Assembly: GCF_900103785.1 (NCBI RefSeq)
Contig: NZ_FNHE01000008.1
Coordinates: forward strand, 67,270-131,269
Direction: 5' to 3'
Length of the DNA: 64,000 nucleotides
From: Geodermatophilus siccatus
GTDB lineage: Bacteria > Actinomycetota > Actinomycetes > Mycobacteriales > Geodermatophilaceae
Part shown: in pieces, positions 226 through 58,617 of the stretch
How the letters are laid out: each line of letters begins with the position of its first letter
How positions within the stretch are numbered: the stretch's first letter is position 1
Notes under the pieces: generated by a model
Seen by the model: the letters and a program-made list of their open reading frames with translations, nothing else
What the model was told of the DNA's origin: nothing
The model's database searches: none
Program-made: the position numbers and the translations under genes

Positions 226-321
226 GGAGGCGTCAGGGCGCCTGGTGGCCCCCGCGGCCTCTAAAGCCGACGTGGCCGAGCACCTCGGTCAGGCGGGTTC
301 GATTCCCGTCCGCCTCCGCCA
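226..321 (+). tRNA. selC: tRNA-Sec with CUA anticodon (reads UAG)
   Basis: This is a 96-nt tRNA including an encoded CCA. Acceptor arm GGAGGCG pairs with CGCCTCC, followed by discriminator G. Acceptor plus T stem give a 13-bp stack, as in bacterial tRNA-Sec. The D arm is long, and the variable arm is an 8-bp stem (273-280 with 284-291) closed by CAC. The anticodon loop is CTCTAAA (259-265), so the anticodon is CUA at 261-263 rather than the standard UCA. It would therefore decode UAG. Position 8 is an apparent T-C mismatch. The tRNA lies inside the sel locus beside a gene with an in-frame UAG, which supports function. Confidence 0.95.
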
Positions 322-327
322 GCTCGT

Positions 328-361
328 CGTCCGGCCGGGGCGTCCCGTCCCCGGCCGGACG
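328..361 (+). terminator. Perfect 13-bp hairpin after tRNA-Sec
   Basis: The arms 328-340 (CGTCCGGCCGGGG) and 349-361 are exact inverse complements, with an 8-nt loop. It lies 6 nt after the tRNA CCA and 20 nt before the ribosome binding site of the selenoprotein gene. It probably ends or processes the tRNA transcript. There is no U tract, as is usual in this GC range. Confidence 0.6.
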
Positions 362-395
362 CCCGTGGACGACGACGTCCGAGGAGGCACCGGCG

Positions 396-1004
396 GTGGC
401 ACGCATCCCCCTGGTCTCGGGAGACGACCCGGACGCCGACCCCAGGGCCCGCGCCCTGCTGGCGATGGTCCGGGAGAGCCGCGGGCGCGAGGTGAACGTC
501 TACCGGGGTATCGCGAACCACCCGGACATCCTCGAGGCGGTCCTGAAGCTGGGGCAGGTCGCCTACTTCGGCAACAGCCTGGACCCGGTGCAGCGGGAGC
601 TGGCCTACTACACCTCCGCCGTCACCAACGAGTGCTTCTACTAGACGCCCACCCACGTGGTGCTCGGTCGGAGCGCCGGTATCAGTGACGAGCAGATGGC
701 CCACGTCCTCGACGACCCGCTGCCCGAGGGGCTGTTCACCCCGGACCAGGCGGCGATCGTGGTCTTCTGCCGGAAGTCGACGCTCATGCAGCCCATCGAC
801 GACGCGACGTGGGCAGCGCTGCGCGAGCACTTCACCACGCAGCAGGTCCTGGAGATCACCTTCACCTGCGGGCTGAACCAGATGATCAGCCGGTTCCACG
901 CCGCCGTCCGCACCGACGTCGACGCCGAGACGATGGACCAGCTGGGCACCTCCTGCCCCGTCCGGCTGCCGGACCTCCCGGCCGACGGTCCGGCGCCGGC
1001 CTGA
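396..1004 (+). CDS. Selenoprotein of the carboxymuconolactone decarboxylase/AhpD family, Sec encoded by UAG
   Basis: The reading frame runs from GTG 396 (ribosome binding site GAGGAG at 381-386) to TGA 1002-1004, with one in-frame TAG at 642-644. Reading that codon as Sec gives a 202-residue protein with the motif ECFYUTPTH: Cys80 and Sec83 form a CxxU redox pair where AhpD/CMD proteins have CxxC followed by a proton-relay His. The sequence on both sides of the TAG is one continuous CMD fold, with helix AYYTSAVTN before it and LGRSAGISDEQ after it. Members are often peroxidase or disulfide-reductase-like. The substrate is unknown. A standard annotation would break it into two ORFs (396-644 and 657-1004). 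Confidence 0.93.
642..678 (+). promoter_or_regulatory. Bacterial SECIS-like hairpin directing UAG to Sec
   Basis: Directly after the TAG (642-644), 660-665 (GTGCTC) pairs with 671-676 (GAGCGC), one pair being G-U, around a GGTCG loop at 666-670. Two further pairs extend the stem at 659/677 and 658/678. The GGU in the apical loop and its 21-nt distance from the recoded codon match bacterial SECIS elements bound by the SelB C-terminal domain. The hairpin is inside the coding sequence, as expected in bacteria. Confidence 0.78.
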
Positions 1005-1062: not shown

Positions 1063-2388
1063 ATGAGCTCCCAGGCGACAGGCACCGACCCGCGGCGGCG
1101 CGTGCCCCGCACCGACACGCTGCTGGCCGATCCGCAGCTCGCCGCCGCCGCCGACCGGCTGGGCCGCGCCCTGGTCAAGGCCGCCGTGCAGGACGTCCAG
1201 CAGCGGGTCCGCACCGGCGCGCTCGCCCCCGCCGACGCCGTCCCCGCCGTCCTGGCCGCCCTGCGGACGACGGCCGGCAGCCTGCGCCCGGTGCTCAACG
1301 CGACCGGCGTCCTGGTGCACACCAACCTGGGCCGCGCACCGCTGTCCCCGGCCGCGGTGGAGGCGGTCGTCGCCGCCAGCGGCACCACCGACGTCGAGCT
1401 CGACCTGACCACCGGCCGGCGCGGTCCGCGGGGGGAGGCGGCGCTGGCCGCCCTGGTCGACGCCGTCCCGGCCGCGGAGGGGGCGCTCGTGGTCAACAAC
1501 TGCGCCGCCGCGTTGGCGCTGGTGGCCACCGCGCTCGGCGGGGAGCTGGTCATCGCCCGCGGCGAGCTGGTCGAGATCGGCGACGGCTTCCGCATCCCCG
1601 AGCTGCTCGAGGCCACCGGGGCCCGGCTCCGCGAGGTGGGGACGACGAACCGGGTCGCGCTCCACGACTACCGCCGCGCGCTGTCCGAGCGCACCGGCGC
1701 GGTGCTCAAGGTCCACCCGTCGAACTTCGTCGTCCGCGGGTTCACGCGGGCGGTGCCGGTGGCCGAGCTCGCCGCGGGGCTGGCCGGCAGCGGGATCCCG
1801 CTCGTGGCCGACGTCGGCTCCGGGCTGCTGCGCCCGCACCCGGTGCTGCCCGAGGAGCCGGACCTGCAGACCACCCTCGCCGACGGCGCCGACCTGGTGC
1901 TGGCCAGCGGCGACAAGCTGCTCGGCGGGCCGCAGGCAGGGCTGGTGCTCGGCCGCGCCGACCTCGTGCAGCGGCTGCGGCGGCACCCGCTCTACCGGGC
2001 GTTCCGCGTCGACAAGACGACGCTGGCCGCGCTGGAGGCCACGCTGCGCGGCCCGCAGCCGCCGGTGCAGCAGATGCTCGCCGCGGACGTCGACGACCTG
2101 CGCCGCCGCGCTGCCGCGCTCGCCGCCCGGCTGACGGCGGCCGGGCTGGACGCGGTCGCGGTGGAGTCCGAGGCCCGCGTCGGCGGGGGAGGGGCGCCGG
2201 AGCACCCGCTGCCCAGCGCCGCGGTGTCGCTGCCCGCGGAGTTCGCGGTGCCGCTGCGCACCGGCACGCCCCCCGTGGTCGGGTACGTGGCGGGCGACCG
2301 CACCCTGCTCGACGTGCGCAGCCTGCCGCCGGCGGACGACGAGACGCTGGCGACCGCGGTGCTGGAGGTGGCCCGCCGGTGGACGTGA
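1063..2388 (+). CDS. selA: L-seryl-tRNA(Sec) selenium transferase
   Basis: SelA is a PLP enzyme that converts Ser-tRNA-Sec to Sec-tRNA-Sec using selenophosphate. The 441-residue protein has the usual length. Residues near 85-97 read LNATGVLVHTNLG, and the PLP lysine lies in SGDKLLGGPQAG near residue 288. A -10-like TACGCT (1049-1054) lies 8 nt before the ATG, so the message is probably leaderless and selA may have its own promoter 58 nt after the selenoprotein gene. selB follows with overlapping or nearly overlapping ends. Confidence 0.96.
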   Translation: MSSQATGTDPRRRVPRTDTLLADPQLAAAADRLGRALVKAAVQDVQQRVRTGALAPADAVPAVLAALRTTAGSLRPVLNATGVLVHTNLGRAPLSPAAVEAVVAASGTTDVELDLTTGRRGPRGEAALAALVDAVPAAEGALVVNNCAAALALVATALGGELVIARGELVEIGDGFRIPELLEATGARLREVGTTNRVALHDYRRALSERTGAVLKVHPSNFVVRGFTRAVPVAELAAGLAGSGIPLVADVGSGLLRPHPVLPEEPDLQTTLADGADLVLASGDKLLGGPQAGLVLGRADLVQRLRRHPLYRAFRVDKTTLAALEATLRGPQPPVQQMLAADVDDLRRRAAALAARLTAAGLDAVAVESEARVGGGGAPEHPLPSAAVSLPAEFAVPLRTGTPPVVGYVAGDRTLLDVRSLPPADDETLATAVLEVARRWT

Positions 2389-2408
2389 CCGCTCCCGGCA
2401 CGTCCGGG

Positions 2409-4184
2409 ATGGACGTCATCGCGACTGCCGGCCACGTGGACCACGGCAAGTCGACGCTGGTCCGCGCGCTCACCGGCATGGAGCCCGACCGGTGGGAGGA
2501 GGAGCGCCGCCGCGGGCTGACCATCGACCTCGGCTTCGCCTGGACGACGCTGCCCTCGGGCCGCCGGCTCGCGGTCGTCGACGTGCCCGGCCACGAGCGC
2601 TTCGTGGGCAACATGCTCGCCGGGGTCGGCTCGGTGCCCGCCGCGCTGGTCGTGGTCGCGGCGGACGACGGGTGGTCGGCGCAGACCGCCGAGCACGTCG
2701 CCGTCCTCGACGCCCTCGGCGTGCGGCACGCGCTGCTCGCCGTCACCAAGGCCGACCTCGCCGACCCCGCGCCGGTGCTCGCCGACGTCCGGGAGCGGCT
2801 GGCCGCCACGTCCCTGGGGAGCGGGCCGACGGGTGAGGTGCCCGGGGTGGCGGTCAGCGCCGCCACCGGCGCGGGGGTGCCGGACGTCGTCGCCGCGCTC
2901 GAGTCGCTGCTCGCCGGGCTGCCCGCGCCGGACCGGGAGGCGCCGGTGCGGCTGTGGATCGACCGCGCCTTCCCGGTCAGGGGCGCCGGCACGGTGGTCA
3001 CCGGCACGCTCGCCGCGGGGCGCGTCGCCACCGGGGACCGGCTGCAGCTCGGCGGCCGGGAGGTCGGCGTCCGCGGCGTGCACTCGCTGGGGCAGCCGGT
3101 CGAGCGGGCCGAGGCCACCGCCCGGGTGGCGCTCAACCTGCGCGGCATCGCCGTCGAGGAGCTGTCCCGCGGTGACGCCCTGCTCACGCCGGGGGCGTTC
3201 CGCGGCACCGCCGAGCTCGACGTCACCCTGGCCCGGGGCGGGTGGGCTGCCGGGGACGATGCCCGGCTGCCCGCCGAGGTCGTCGTGCACGTCGGCTCGG
3301 CCGCGGTCGGCGCGCGGCTGCGCCCCCTGGAGGGGACGGCGGTGCGGCTGCGGCTGGCCACGCCGCTGCCGCTGCGGGTCGGCGACCGGCTGCTGCTGCG
3401 CGACCCCGGCGCCCGCCGCGTGTGCGGTGCCGACGTCCGGGACGTCGACCCGCCGGAGCTGCGCCGCCGCGGAGCCGCCCGCCGGCGGGCCGAGGAGCTG
3501 GCCGCCCAGCCCGTCGGCACGGCCGGGGCCGCCGCCGAGCTGGCGCGGCGCCGGTTCGTCCGGGCTGCCGACTTCACCGCGATGGGCTGGCCGGTGCCCG
3601 AGCAGGCGGCGGCGGTGGGGCCCTGGCTGCTCGCGCCCGGGCTGGTCGACGAGCTGGCCGCGGCCCTGCCCGGGATCGTCGCCCGCTACCGCAAGCTGCG
3701 CCCGCTCGAGCCGGGCCCGCCGGTGGCCGTCGCCCGCCGGGCGCTGGAGCTGCCCGACGACGACCTGGTGCCGGCCGTCGTCCGCGAGCCGCTGGCCCTG
3801 CGCGAGGGCCGGGTGGTCGCCGCGACCGCCGGCCTGCCCGCCCGGGTGCAGCAGGCGGTCGACCGGATCCGGGCCACGCTGGCCGCCGATCCGTTCGCCG
3901 CGCCGGACGCCGACCAGCTCCGCGCCGCCGGGCTGGGGCCGCGCGAGCTGGCCGCGGCCGTGCGCGACGGGCAGCTGGTCAGGATCGCCGACGGCGTCTA
4001 CCTCGCCCCCGGGATCGCCGAGCAGGCGCGGGCCCGGCTGGCCGCCGTCCCGGCGCCGTTCACGCTCAGCCAGGCCCGCTCGGCGTGGGGCACCAGCCGG
4101 CGGGTCGCCGTCCCGCTGATGGAGTGGCTGGACGCGCGCGGCGTCACCGAGCGGCTGCCCGACGACACCCGCCGGCTGCGGTGA
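2409..4184 (+). CDS. selB: Selenocysteine-specific elongation factor
   Basis: SelB is a GTPase that brings Sec-tRNA-Sec to the recoded codon and reads the SECIS hairpin. G1 is GHVDHGKST near residue 8, followed by G3 DVPGHERF and G4 TKAD. The C-terminal half contains winged-helix repeats that bind SECIS RNA. At 591 residues it is normal length. I start it at ATG 2409 (MDVIATAGHVDHGK, the family N-terminus); an in-frame GTG at 2379 overlapping the selA stop is possible and adds ten residues. A short hairpin just after the stop ends the unit. Confidence 0.95.
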   Translation: MDVIATAGHVDHGKSTLVRALTGMEPDRWEEERRRGLTIDLGFAWTTLPSGRRLAVVDVPGHERFVGNMLAGVGSVPAALVVVAADDGWSAQTAEHVAVLDALGVRHALLAVTKADLADPAPVLADVRERLAATSLGSGPTGEVPGVAVSAATGAGVPDVVAALESLLAGLPAPDREAPVRLWIDRAFPVRGAGTVVTGTLAAGRVATGDRLQLGGREVGVRGVHSLGQPVERAEATARVALNLRGIAVEELSRGDALLTPGAFRGTAELDVTLARGGWAAGDDARLPAEVVVHVGSAAVGARLRPLEGTAVRLRLATPLPLRVGDRLLLRDPGARRVCGADVRDVDPPELRRRGAARRRAEELAAQPVGTAGAAAELARRRFVRAADFTAMGWPVPEQAAAVGPWLLAPGLVDELAAALPGIVARYRKLRPLEPGPPVAVARRALELPDDDLVPAVVREPLALREGRVVAATAGLPARVQQAVDRIRATLAADPFAAPDADQLRAAGLGPRELAAAVRDGQLVRIADGVYLAPGIAEQARARLAAVPAPFTLSQARSAWGTSRRVAVPLMEWLDARGVTERLPDDTRRLR

Positions 4185-19859: not shown

Positions 19860-20879
19860 CTAGAGCAGCGAGTGACCACCCGAAGCGAGGTAGCGCCGGG
19901 CGAGTTCGCAGGACGCCGCCGTGTAGCTCGGGCCCTTGACCTGGCACTCACGGGAGTGGGAGTGGGAACCCATCCACGCCACCAGGAGCAGCCGCCGGAG
20001 CATGACGAAGGTGGCGAGCATGTCCTCGTCCTCGGCGGGAACCGGTGCGATGTCGCGATAGCCGCGCAGCCACGCGTCCTGCCACTGCGGCAGGCGGGGG
20101 TCGTCCTCGAGGAAGGAGACCGCCGTGCCGAAGTCGTACAGGTACCAGGTGAAGCCGCAGTCGTCGAAGTCGATGACCGTCACCTGGTCGTCGTGCACGA
20201 GGAGGTTGGCCAGTCGCAGGTCGGCGTGCGCCAGCCCGTACCGGTCCGGTTCCTGCCCGTAGGCCTCCAGTCGCTGCCGCACCAGGTCCGCGGCCGCGCC
20301 GAGGATGCGCTCCTCCTCGCCGCCCACCCCGATCCCGTCCTGCCAGCGGCCCCATCGCGGGTCCTCGCCGAGCGAGGACGACCAGTCCCAGGAGAACCTG
20401 GTGAACCCGGCGGGACGCTGCCAGGACCGAGCGTGCTGGTGCATGCGAGCGGTGATCCGGCCCAGTGTCTCGAAGCTCTCCAGCGGGACCTTGAGCTCGT
20501 CGGGCTCGATCCCGGGGGCGACCTCGAAGAGCACGGCGTGGCGCTCCACACCGTCGACCTCGGCGGTGACCACGCGCTCGCCGTCCTCGGAGGGGAGCAC
20601 GACCGGCGTGGCGACGCCGGCCTCCTCCCGGAGGGCGGTGACCCAGTCCAGCTCGGACTCGATCGCCGGTCGCGTGTGGTAGTCCTCCCGGTGGACCCGC
20701 AGGACGCCGCTGCGCCCGGTGCCGGGGTCGTGGACGAGGTAGGTGGCGTTCTCGGAGAGGTTGATCATCCGGCAGCTCACCTGGTCGGACAGCCCGTACC
20801 TGGTCAGCGCGACAGCGGCCACCCGGTCGTCCCCGCGGTCGACCTCGCCCTCCCGGGTCGCCGTCTCCTGCTCCGCCAT
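19860..20879 (-). CDS. APH-fold kinase, probable 1-amino-2-propanol kinase
   Basis: The 339-residue aminoglycoside phosphotransferase/choline-kinase fold protein has the Brenner-type motif GLAHADLRLANLLVHDD with the catalytic Asp and the metal-binding VIDFDDCGF. In RMM loci this kinase makes the amino-alcohol phosphate that the PLP enzyme then cleaves. It overlaps the BMC-T gene by 3 nt. The stop is TAG (19860-19862), one of the genes here still ending at the Sec codon. Confidence 0.9.
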   Translation of the reverse strand: MAEQETATREGEVDRGDDRVAAVALTRYGLSDQVSCRMINLSENATYLVHDPGTGRSGVLRVHREDYHTRPAIESELDWVTALREEAGVATPVVLPSEDGERVVTAEVDGVERHAVLFEVAPGIEPDELKVPLESFETLGRITARMHQHARSWQRPAGFTRFSWDWSSSLGEDPRWGRWQDGIGVGGEEERILGAAADLVRQRLEAYGQEPDRYGLAHADLRLANLLVHDDQVTVIDFDDCGFTWYLYDFGTAVSFLEDDPRLPQWQDAWLRGYRDIAPVPAEDEDMLATFVMLRRLLLVAWMGSHSHSRECQVKGPSYTAASCELARRYLASGGHSLL

Positions 20880-46717: not shown

Positions 46718-47347
46718 GTGGGCGTGCGCGCGGGGAGCCTGGTGGGCCGGGTGGTGGGCGCCGTGGTGCTCGCCGTCGTCCTGCTGGTCGTCTCCACCGC
46801 GACGGCGATCTGGTGGACGGCGCGGCAGGACTCGCAGCCGCACTCCGACGCGATCGTGGTGCTCGGGTCGGCGCAGTACAACGGCGTCCCGTCGTCCATC
46901 TTCGAGGCGCGGCTGGAGCACGCGCTGCAGTTGTTCGAGGCCGGGGTCGCGCCGGTGGTGGTGACCGTCGGCGGCAAGGCCGACGGTGACCAGTTCACCG
47001 AGGCGGCGTCCGGGCAGGCCTACCTGGCCGAGGCCGGGGTCCCGGAGGAGGCGCTGCTGGCCGTCGAGGAGGGCGTCGACACGCTGGAGAGCATGCGGGC
47101 CGTCGGCACCGCCTTCGACGAGCGCGGCTGGGACTCGGCGGTGCTGGTCACCGACCCGTGGCACGCGATGCGCGCCGAGCGGATGGCCGAGGACGCCGGC
47201 ATCACCGCGGACAGCTCGCCGACCCGGCAGGGCCCGGCAGTGCAGACCCGCACCACGCAGTTCCGCTACATCCTCCGCGAGACGGCCGCCTACCTGCTCT
47301 ACCGCGCGACCGGCGAGAGCGTCGCCGGGGCGCCGGGGATCGGCTGA
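46718..47347 (+). CDS. YdcF/SanA-type DUF218 membrane-anchored protein
   Basis: The 209-residue protein has one N-terminal transmembrane helix (VVLAVVLLVVSTATAIWW) and the DUF218 domain: SDAIVVLGSAQYNGVPS, then VVVTVGGKA and AVLVTDPWHAMRAERMAED. The family is linked to envelope or vancomycin-related phenotypes in other bacteria; the substrate is unknown. It probably starts a transcript with the next gene and dnaG. Confidence 0.88.
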   Translation: MGVRAGSLVGRVVGAVVLAVVLLVVSTATAIWWTARQDSQPHSDAIVVLGSAQYNGVPSSIFEARLEHALQLFEAGVAPVVVTVGGKADGDQFTEAASGQAYLAEAGVPEEALLAVEEGVDTLESMRAVGTAFDERGWDSAVLVTDPWHAMRAERMAEDAGITADSSPTRQGPAVQTRTTQFRYILRETAAYLLYRATGESVAGAPGIG

Positions 47348-50876: not shown

Positions 50877-50949
50877 TCCCCCGTAGCTCAATTGGCAGAG
50901 CATGCGACTGTTAATCGCAGGGTTATTGGTTCGAGTCCAATCGGGGGAG
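50877..50949 (+). tRNA. tRNA-Asn (anticodon GTT)
   Basis: The 73-nt cloverleaf has acceptor TCCCCCG pairing with CGGGGGA and discriminator G; CCA is not encoded. The anticodon loop is CTGTTAA, giving GTT (Asn), and the T arm is TTGGTTCGAGTCCAA. A -10-like TAACCT lies at 50843-50848. The 3' half is the integration target of a decayed element, because an imperfect copy lies at 52171. Confidence 0.97.
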
Positions 50950-50950
50950 C
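50915..50950 (+). other. Attachment site within the tRNA-Asn 3' end
   Basis: These 36 bases match 52171-52206 at 31 positions. Integrative elements of actinobacteria often recombine at tRNA 3' ends and leave such direct repeats. Integrase remnants between the copies support this reading. Confidence 0.6.
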
Positions 50951-51188
50951 AACACCGCAGGTCAGCGGCTCGTGAGCGCCTCCAGGCGGAACCAATTGTC
51001 GCTGGAGTCGCAAGAAACCCGTGACATTGGGGCGCGTGACGGCGCTGGGTGGCACCTCTGACGGGCTCTCGACGCTGGCTCGGCCGACGTCGCGGGGCCG
51101 CTGTCTGAGAGCTGGCCGGGTAGTGGCTGCGGTCCTCGGGGTGCCCAGCAGCGCGAGGTTGTGAAGAAGCCCTCGCGGATTCGAGGCG

Positions 51189-51893
51189 CTACAGGGCCCG
51201 CCGGATGACCGCAGCGGTCCTCGGGCTGGCGGTGCCGCGGCCGAGGTAGACGTCCTGGGTCAGGCTGGGCCGGCTGTGGCCGAGGTGGTCGGCGATCTGG
51301 CGAGCGGACAACCCGGCCTCGTCCAGCCGGGTGGCCACGGTCTTGCGGAACGTGTGCGAGGTGGCCCAGGGGAAGCCGGCCCGGTCGAGGGCCTGGCGCA
51401 GGTCGCCGTTGGTGTTGCTCGGATCGCGGAGCCGTCCCTGCGGGCTGGGGAAGAGCACCGGGTCGTCCCCAACGGTGGCCAGAATGGTGATGCGGCGCTG
51501 GAGCAGCTCAACCGTCCGCGGTGGGAGGGTGATGGTGCGCCGCCCGGCGGTGGTCTTCGGCACGTCCTGGATGAGCAGGCCGCGACCTCGCTCGCGGATG
51601 ACGGTGCCGGTCACGGTCAGCGTGCCGGCGTCGAGGTCCACGTCCAAGGGGCGGAGCGCGCAGGCCTCGCCGATGCGCAGGCCGGTGCCGAGCAGGAAAG
51701 CGACGAGGTCGGGCAGGTCCTGGCGGGCCGCCGCGGCGTCGACGACCAGCCGTTCCTGCAGCGAGCGGGCTTCCTCGACGGTGAGCGCCCGGGGGCCGCG
51801 GGCGGTGCGGGCCGTGCGCCGGGCGGTGGCGTGTTCGAGGGATCGCGCCAGCCGCCCATGGGAGCGGGAGAGACTGGATGGTGACCGTGACCT
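51189..51893 (-). pseudogene. Tyrosine recombinase (phage-type integrase), 5'-truncated
   Basis: The open frame of 234 codons ends at TAG 51189-51191. It holds the integrase catalytic domain: GTGLRIGEACALRPLDVDLD (first Arg), KTTAGRRTITLP, the HTFRKTVATRLDEAG box and ADHLGHSRPSLTQDVYLG with the Tyr. The N-terminal arm and most of the SAM-like domain are missing: a stop lies at 51894-51896 and no good start exists. The fragment next to the tRNA-Asn suggests a relic of an integrative element. Confidence 0.82.
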
Positions 51894-57978: not shown

Positions 57979-58617
57979 CTACGCCAGCAGTGACGCAGCC
58001 GCCATCCGCTGCAGGTTCCCGACGTAGGTCTCGAACGTCCAGCCCCACGTGCCGACCAGGCGCTGGTAGAGCGTCGGGTCGATCAGGGCGTCGGCGATGG
58101 CGGCAGCCTGTTCGCGATCGAGTCCGGGCGGAAGCCCGCCGAGGTCGGCGACGCGGCCGACGACATCTCGGGCGCCCTCGGCCCGCTGGTCGTCGGTCGT
58201 GGCGAGGAGGGCTGCAGCCTCGGGGTCGGCGTCGGCTGCCACGACGAGGACGTGGTGCAGCGTGGCGAGCCGCTGGTTGATGGCGGCGTTCATCGCCATC
58301 CACGCGGCGAGCAGTTCGGCAGGGTCCTCGCCCTGCATCATCCGCTGCACCTCCGGCCGGTCCGCGATGGCCACCGGTTCCTCGTCGCCGGCGAGCGTCC
58401 AGTCGAAGGCGAGCTTCAGGACGGCGGCCTTCGCGCCGACCGAGGTGAAGACGGTCCTGCGGCTGACCCCTGCACGCTCGGCGATGGCGTCGATCGTGGT
58501 CGGGACATAGCCGCTCTCCACGAACAGCGCGGCTCCGGCGTCGACGATCCGCCGGCGCGTGACCCGTGACTGCTCGTCACGCAGGGCGGAGCGGTACGGG
58601 CGGCCGCCGGCCGTCAT
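57979..58617 (-). CDS. TetR-family transcriptional regulator
   Basis: The 212-residue protein has an N-terminal helix-turn-helix (RRIVDAGAALFVESGYVPTT, then IAERAGVSRRTVFTSVGAK) and a variable ligand domain. It is divergent from the flavin monooxygenase and probably represses it through the operator between them. The stop is TAG (57979-57981). Confidence 0.92.
   Translation of the reverse strand: MTAGGRPYRSALRDEQSRVTRRRIVDAGAALFVESGYVPTTIDAIAERAGVSRRTVFTSVGAKAAVLKLAFDWTLAGDEEPVAIADRPEVQRMMQGEDPAELLAAWMAMNAAINQRLATLHHVLVVAADADPEAAALLATTDDQRAEGARDVVGRVADLGGLPPGLDREQAAAIADALIDPTLYQRLVGTWGWTFETYVGNLQRMAAASLLA

Follow-up and report, generated by a model that had tools for sequence, protein, structure and literature searches.

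A predicted UAG-encoded selenocysteine in an AhpD-like gene of Geodermatophilus siccatus, with orthologues spelled UAG or UGA

Recoding of UAG as selenocysteine (Sec) would place the decoding machinery in competition with release factor 1, as the canonical recoding of UGA competes with release factor 2. The 2016 work of Mukai et al. on UAG-Sec reportedly included 75Se labelling or mass spectrometry. In the passages of PMC5330540 that deal with it, this work is cited for tRNA-Sec(CUA) in Geodermatophilaceae and for UAG in formate dehydrogenase and in proteins with the UGSC motif; three Geodermatophilaceae with tRNA-Sec(CUA) are reported there, and the UAG-containing AhpC of Blastococcus saxobsidens DD2 is added to the set. 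This is the published survey to which an earlier note on the present DNA had pointed, and UAG-Sec in Blastococcus is also cited, in the relevant passage, by PMC5133445. The principle of UAG-Sec is already known for Geodermatophilaceae, and selenoproteins of the AhpD-like or CMD-like type with a CxxU motif, spelled with UGA, have long been known, as the corresponding sections of PMC2398784 and PMC13188914 describe.

The DNA analysed here (the window) is a stretch of 64,000 nucleotides from Geodermatophilus siccatus, in which selD (minus strand), a tRNA-Sec gene, an AhpD-like frame with an internal TAG, selA and selB follow one another in this order. The tRNA-Sec gene (selC; 226–321, plus strand, with an encoded G73-CCA) is matched by the covariance model RF01852 (tRNA-Sec) at 226–317 with 64.2 bits (E 9e-11; gathering score 47) over model positions 1–91 of 91, and the G-CCA occupies bases 318–321, directly 3′ of this match. 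The usual UCA anticodon of bacterial tRNA-Sec, which RF01852 does not require, is absent; the covariance-model alignment and ARAGORN both put CUA at 261–263 (plus strand), within the anticodon loop CU-CUA-AA, so that the anticodon proposed in the earlier note is confirmed and in no other register. Seven further RF01852 matches occur in the same genome at E <= 0.001, all of them ordinary tRNAs according to ARAGORN, the strongest (48.2 bits, just above the cut-off) being called as tRNA-Ser(UGA). The sel genes reported around the tRNA and the UAG gene were also recovered, all above their NCBIfam cut-offs: selA, encoding L-seryl-tRNA(Sec) selenium transferase (1063–2388, plus strand), scores 421.2 bits with TIGR00474 (cut-off 267.9), and selB, encoding the Sec-specific elongation factor (2379–4184, plus strand), scores 277.3 bits with TIGR00475 (cut-off 242.25). 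The 5′ part of selD (selenide, water dikinase, in the Cys form GGGCACK) lies at 1–202 on the minus strand and the gene extends past the left edge of the window; its full product of 335 aa (L198:1665-2672) scores 386.1 bits with TIGR00476 (cut-off 125).

ARAGORN calls the tRNA over the same bases, 226–321, with anticodon cta, and labels it tRNA-Pyl, which would have the UAG encode pyrrolysine. Against this label stand the fit of the tRNA to the Sec model along its full length, the adjoining sel genes and the position of the UAG at a Cys of CxxC paralogues, and we assign the pyrrolysine reading a vanishingly small probability. A search of the genome for PylS returned a single PylS_Cterm match, whose 24.4 bits lie below the cut-off of 178.15; matches of this kind arose in 13 of 14 control genomes too, with one genome above the cut-off. 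With PylS above the cut-off absent from the genome, pyrrolysine was ruled out.

The AhpD-like gene itself, encoding a CMD/AhpD-family protein, occupies 396–1004 on the plus strand, a frame of 609 bases with a GTG start and GAGGAGG upstream at 381–387. Its sole internal stop is the TAG at 642–644 (plus strand), in the context NECFY-UAG-TPTH; read as Sec, it gives a product of 202 residues with the motif NECFYUTPTH, in which C-F-Y-U runs from Cys80 to Sec83. Membership of the CMD/AhpD family, assigned earlier from the translation, is upheld by PF02627 (CMD family), which matches with 45.1 bits against a cut-off of 23. Four NCBIfam models fall below their cut-offs: NF041238 (AhpD_rel_CFYUT) reaches 22.6 bits against a cut-off of 175, though the CFYUT motif is common to both, TIGR01926 (peroxid_rel) reaches 36.9 bits against 81.8, and the (seleno)protein families NF053654 and NF041047 match only far below their cut-offs. 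An AlphaFold model built from 9 sequences, of middling confidence (mean pLDDT 69.9), finds its best PDB match in the Pseudomonas aeruginosa AhpD 7xw1 (target TM 0.86, rmsd 1.8, 131 columns). Among paralogues of the protein (23 loci given), 19 alignments cover the Sec83 site; the UAG lies opposite the second Cys of CxxC, as had been claimed for it, in three of these, all CxxC proteins, and the other 16, which are without CxxC, carry Glu there.

Protein databases hold the AhpD-like gene mostly as split halves, listed as separate proteins of 132–133 aa for the N-terminal part and ~111–124 aa for the C-terminal part, as would be expected if UAG 642 were a plain stop, with the gene either a pseudogene of recent origin or encoding two short proteins independently. 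We consider this very improbable, given that TAG stands at the same site in 9/9 close orthologues of the family, down to 53% identity, that genomes with tRNA-Sec(UCA) have TGA at that site, and that the match to AhpD 7xw1, which the model shares, crosses the UAG, spanning residues 43 to 167. Selection is also similar on both sides, dN/dS being 0.17 and 0.15 before the UAG and 0.12 and 0.23 after it; by these estimates purifying selection acts downstream of the UAG. Close relatives, in which a plain stop followed by unconserved sequence had been named as the outcome that would overturn the reading, keep the TAG and conserved sequence after it. A pseudogene or sequencing error was likewise considered, and was ruled out by the nine TAG orthologues together with selection on both sides. 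In a scan of both strands of the window (ends left out; 60 open codons each side), TAG 642 alone among 279 TAG triplets has a coding log-odds of >0.36 bits/codon on both sides. Two TGA triplets, at 47345 and 38577, outscore it, the former apparently marking where one gene ends and its neighbour begins in the same frame. Two metagenome homologues that span the site, P0009 and P0018, have Trp in the position of Sec; a gene with TGA there, translated with a code in which TGA stands for Trp, would give this result.

Elsewhere in the window TAG ends ORFs with ordinary Pfam domains, namely an APH-family phosphotransferase (19860–20879), a TetR regulator (57979–58617) and an integrase (51189–51647), and 8/49 window ORFs end in TAG by a rough ORF call in which some are probably not genes. 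Because UAG also ends such ordinary genes, its recoding must depend on context, and on the sequence evidence UAG must be reassigned only by context and not genome-wide; SelB and a hairpin would supply that context. The integrase ORF, of the phage type, follows a tRNA-Asn gene within ~240 bases (50877–51647), an arrangement that is a typical sign of an integrated element.

A candidate SECIS hairpin is predicted by centroid folding at 659–677 (plus strand), with a 7-bp stem and the loop GGUCG at 666–670. The loop lies 21 nt after the UAG, within the range of 16–37 nt after the Sec codon that PMC10778597 gives, in the passage concerned, for bacterial SECIS loops. Folded as a single sequence, the 69 nt from the UAG onwards show no greater stability than shuffled versions (z 0.80), so that support for the hairpin comes from conservation and covariation. 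Ten copies with the 5-base loop form the set A3, in which 98.6% of cells are paired under a structure taken from the fold of one member sequence, which favours that structure, and shifting the partners by 1–3 columns lowers pairing to 26–54%. Variation is confined to few pairs, with changes on both sides at 2/7; the covariation score of A3 was reached by 1/500 shuffles and its percentage of paired cells likewise lay above nearly all of them, its doubly changed pairs were matched by 107/500 and its pair types by 497/500. In the other 5/15 copies, which stand outside A3, the loop is the 4-base GGUC and the 3′ side of the stem is shifted by one base. Across all 15 aligned copies, UAG and UGA alike, the loop region CTCGGTCG does not vary, and by a rough ORF call GGT accounts for just 10.7% of the Gly codons in the window's ORFs (204/1904).

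Sequence evidence establishes the tRNA with its CUA anticodon, the in-frame UAG, the sel genes and a conserved stretch able to form a hairpin, in which paired changes occur; it also establishes that the orthologues have codons matching the anticodons of their hosts. The mechanism that would unite them, and which we regard as very probably correct, is that tRNA-Sec(CUA) delivers Sec, via SelA, SelD and SelB, to UAG 642–644 of the AhpD-family gene. The CUA tRNA would be charged with Sec through SelA and SelD and carried by SelB, and Sec would be delivered to this codon because SelB would be brought to it by the predicted hairpin 21 nt further on before release factor 1, its competitor, could act; UAG without such a hairpin elsewhere in the genome would remain a stop. 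The product would have the CMD/AhpD fold and act as a CxxU thiol/selenol peroxidase or reductase, with a predicted active site of Cys80, Sec83 and His87. Readthrough of the UAG might instead take some different route, placing Cys, Ser or Gln at residue 83, with incorporation of Sec partial or absent; an engineered E. coli UAG-Sec system is indeed described, in part of PMC10778597, as misincorporating Gln and Lys at UAG. Such readthrough is very unlikely here, since codon and anticodon change together over the gene tree and the loop region is invariant over the 15 UAG and UGA copies, as decoding by Sec and SelB predicts.

Decoding of UAG as Sec by this tRNA would also serve further genes of the same genome. 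A formate dehydrogenase carries TAG at its Sec position (NF041513, 1877.5 bits; cut-off 1400), and two UGSC-type genes have TAG as the U of UGSC, one scoring above (138.3) and one below (99.3) the NF041046 cut-off of 125, which with the AhpD-like gene makes four TAG genes. Across the family, formate dehydrogenase matches were obtained at E <= 1e-150 in 100/112 genomes, and among the matches listed every one that spans residue 149 has TAG. TAG stands exactly at the formate dehydrogenase Sec site in 46/48 loci examined, L218 included; the two exceptions come from G034 and G079, which have no match spanning residue 149, the locus of G034 being cut by a contig end and the match of G079 starting after the site and containing TGA. 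G079 has two formate dehydrogenase matches (G079:C12:812343-814946, L213, and G079:C4:95-2365), both starting past the Sec site; an in-frame TGA is present in one and a TAG in the other, and the gene is possibly damaged, split or differently spelled. The predicted hairpin of formate dehydrogenase has the loop GGUCU (AGUCU in one sequence) 18 nt after the codon, and 99.0% of cells are paired over 28 distinct sequences (set A1). Its ten double changes all fall at one of the seven pairs; the covariation score was reached by 0/500 shuffles, with the percentage paired likewise above nearly all of them, the doubly changed pairs by 496/500 and the pair types by 156/500. The pattern CYCGGTCKGRG occurs at 154 places in the G. 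siccatus genome, against 60 for a reversed-pattern control, and among the first 30 of the 154 loci a TAG 13–35 nt before the loop was found in two already known genes alone.

Close orthologues of the AhpD-like gene, at 53–100% identity, are present in 9/112 Geodermatophilaceae genomes, and the gene is thus accessory in the family. All nine have TAG at the site (the match in G004 also contains a TGA, which is the gene's own stop codon), and all nine genomes carry a CUA tRNA-Sec, which adjoins the gene in four of them, namely G. siccatus, G064, G057 and G093. Records of Geodermatophilus tzadiensis (DSM 45416) and Geodermatophilus sp. TF02-6 carry the gene, and the other family matches listed are paralogues at <=38% identity, some with TGA or TAG inside the aligned stretch. 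A search of 396 genomes of the phylum returned an orthologue at E <= 1e-30 in four genomes beyond that of G. siccatus, all of one family and each with TGA at the Sec site; G187 contains a second copy, damaged upstream of residue 61, where its match begins, and this copy too has TGA at the site, as does that of an Acidimicrobiia MAG (L019, 64% identity). Outside Geodermatophilaceae the site is TGA in 6 copies of 5 genomes, and 5/5 of these genomes have tRNA-Sec(UCA). Codon and anticodon agree in 14/14 genomes with an orthologue, and this pairing of orthologue codons with matching host anticodons supports the central claim of the earlier note, that UAG is recoded to Sec. The predicted SECIS hairpin, the further UAG selenoprotein genes of the genome, the orthologues spelled with UGA and the stop function that UAG retains elsewhere are additions to that note.

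A protein tree of 15 copies, with the Sec residue entered as X and the duplicates L020 and L021 (two strains) left out, needs two codon changes, and still two without the long row L022. The TGA copy L019 groups with the window's own clade and G093, with support of 100/99 for the five, and forcing the UAG rows into one clade is rejected (log-likelihood 43.16 lower, p-AU 2.6e-6), in a test chosen after inspection of the tree and with a warning from the tree program about long branches, L019 included. Because L019 sits among the UAG rows and a single UAG clade is rejected, the Sec codon of the AhpD-like gene seems to follow the tRNA-Sec of its host.

The anticodon is nearly uniform within the family. 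At E <= 1e-9, 108/112 genomes of the family have a tRNA-Sec, and the other four are 72–82% complete; of the 110 family tRNA-Sec genes, all with their anticodons scored, 102 have CUA and 8 have UCA. CUA is carried by 101/108 genomes with tRNA-Sec; of the UCA genes, seven belong to genomes that have no other tRNA-Sec and that fall in three genera (g5, g6 and g7; assemblies of 190–550 contigs), and one is additional to the CUA gene of G058. A search of the class found tRNA-Sec in 101/394 genomes, two of these being family members, and outside the family no CUA was seen in the 70 of 100 genes that were scored, 69 of which have UCA and one ACA. Because CUA is present in 101/108 family genomes and in none of these 70 genes, the anticodon counts are most simply explained by a single switch from UCA to CUA inside the family.

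A few genomes carry more than one tRNA-Sec. G058, of the same genus as G. siccatus, has a native CUA tRNA-Sec (L079 4933–5028) and a second, divergent UCA tRNA-Sec (81.8 bits; 1169–1263 of L080, G058:C17:1-9000), the latter on a segment that also carries transposase-like ORFs (HTH_38 in one of them) and an operon of low GC3 with a JAB domain; by its two anticodons it is a possible two-codon organism. The actinomycete G745 has two tRNA-Sec genes, one with UCA and one with the anticodon ACA (L307/L329; G745:C1:117033-117124), the latter directly upstream of selB and with selA ~2 kb beyond. ACA would read the Cys codon UGU, and in the seven ORFs examined TGT at a CxxC-type site was absent. The fragmented genome G037 has two different CUA tRNA-Sec genes (L077 and L086), one of them identical to copies of another genus, probably through assembly contamination.

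Taken over the Actinomycetota, the comparisons make it probable that the host anticodon sets the Sec codon, that movement of the AhpD-like gene between bacteria with UGA-Sec and those with UAG-Sec was accompanied by at least two re-spellings of the Sec codon alone, its SECIS loop staying the same, and that the UAG code is fixed in nearly all Geodermatophilaceae except the three UCA genera. As far as the literature was searched, the AhpD-like UAG gene, the near-fixation of CUA in the family (101/108) and the re-spelling of the codon with the host are new; no report of a UAG-spelled AhpD-like gene was found in the open-licence literature, the 2016 report being known via the papers that cite it. 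Since this gene is stored as two halves in the databases and its tRNA is labelled tRNA-Pyl by ARAGORN, selenoproteins of this sort are easily missed. The locus offers a clear example from nature of a stop codon with, it seems, two meanings within a single genome. The same selenoprotein gene has UGA or UAG according to its host and an identical loop, and this cross-codon comparison makes it possible to test whether SelB and SECIS heed the codon or are independent of its identity.

Set beside the described Geodermatophilaceae UAG-Sec system (Mukai et al. 2016, Angew. Chem., doi 10.1002/anie.201511657), the locus belongs to the same bacterial family and shares with it tRNA-Sec(CUA) and UAG in formate dehydrogenase and UGSC proteins; it differs in its AhpD-like gene, which is absent among the UAG selenoproteins named in the relevant parts of PMC5330540 and PMC5133445, namely formate dehydrogenase, UGSC and AhpC. 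The UGA-spelled AhpD-like and CMD-like selenoproteins, as portrayed in the corresponding parts of PMC2398784 and PMC13188914, are of the same protein family and likewise have a CxxU motif with Sec second, whereas the codon here is UAG and NF041238, NF053654, NF041047 and TIGR01926 are all far below their cut-offs. With the canonical bacterial recoding of UGA by SelB and SECIS, finally, the locus has in common selA, selB, selD, a tRNA-Sec and a hairpin within range of the codon.
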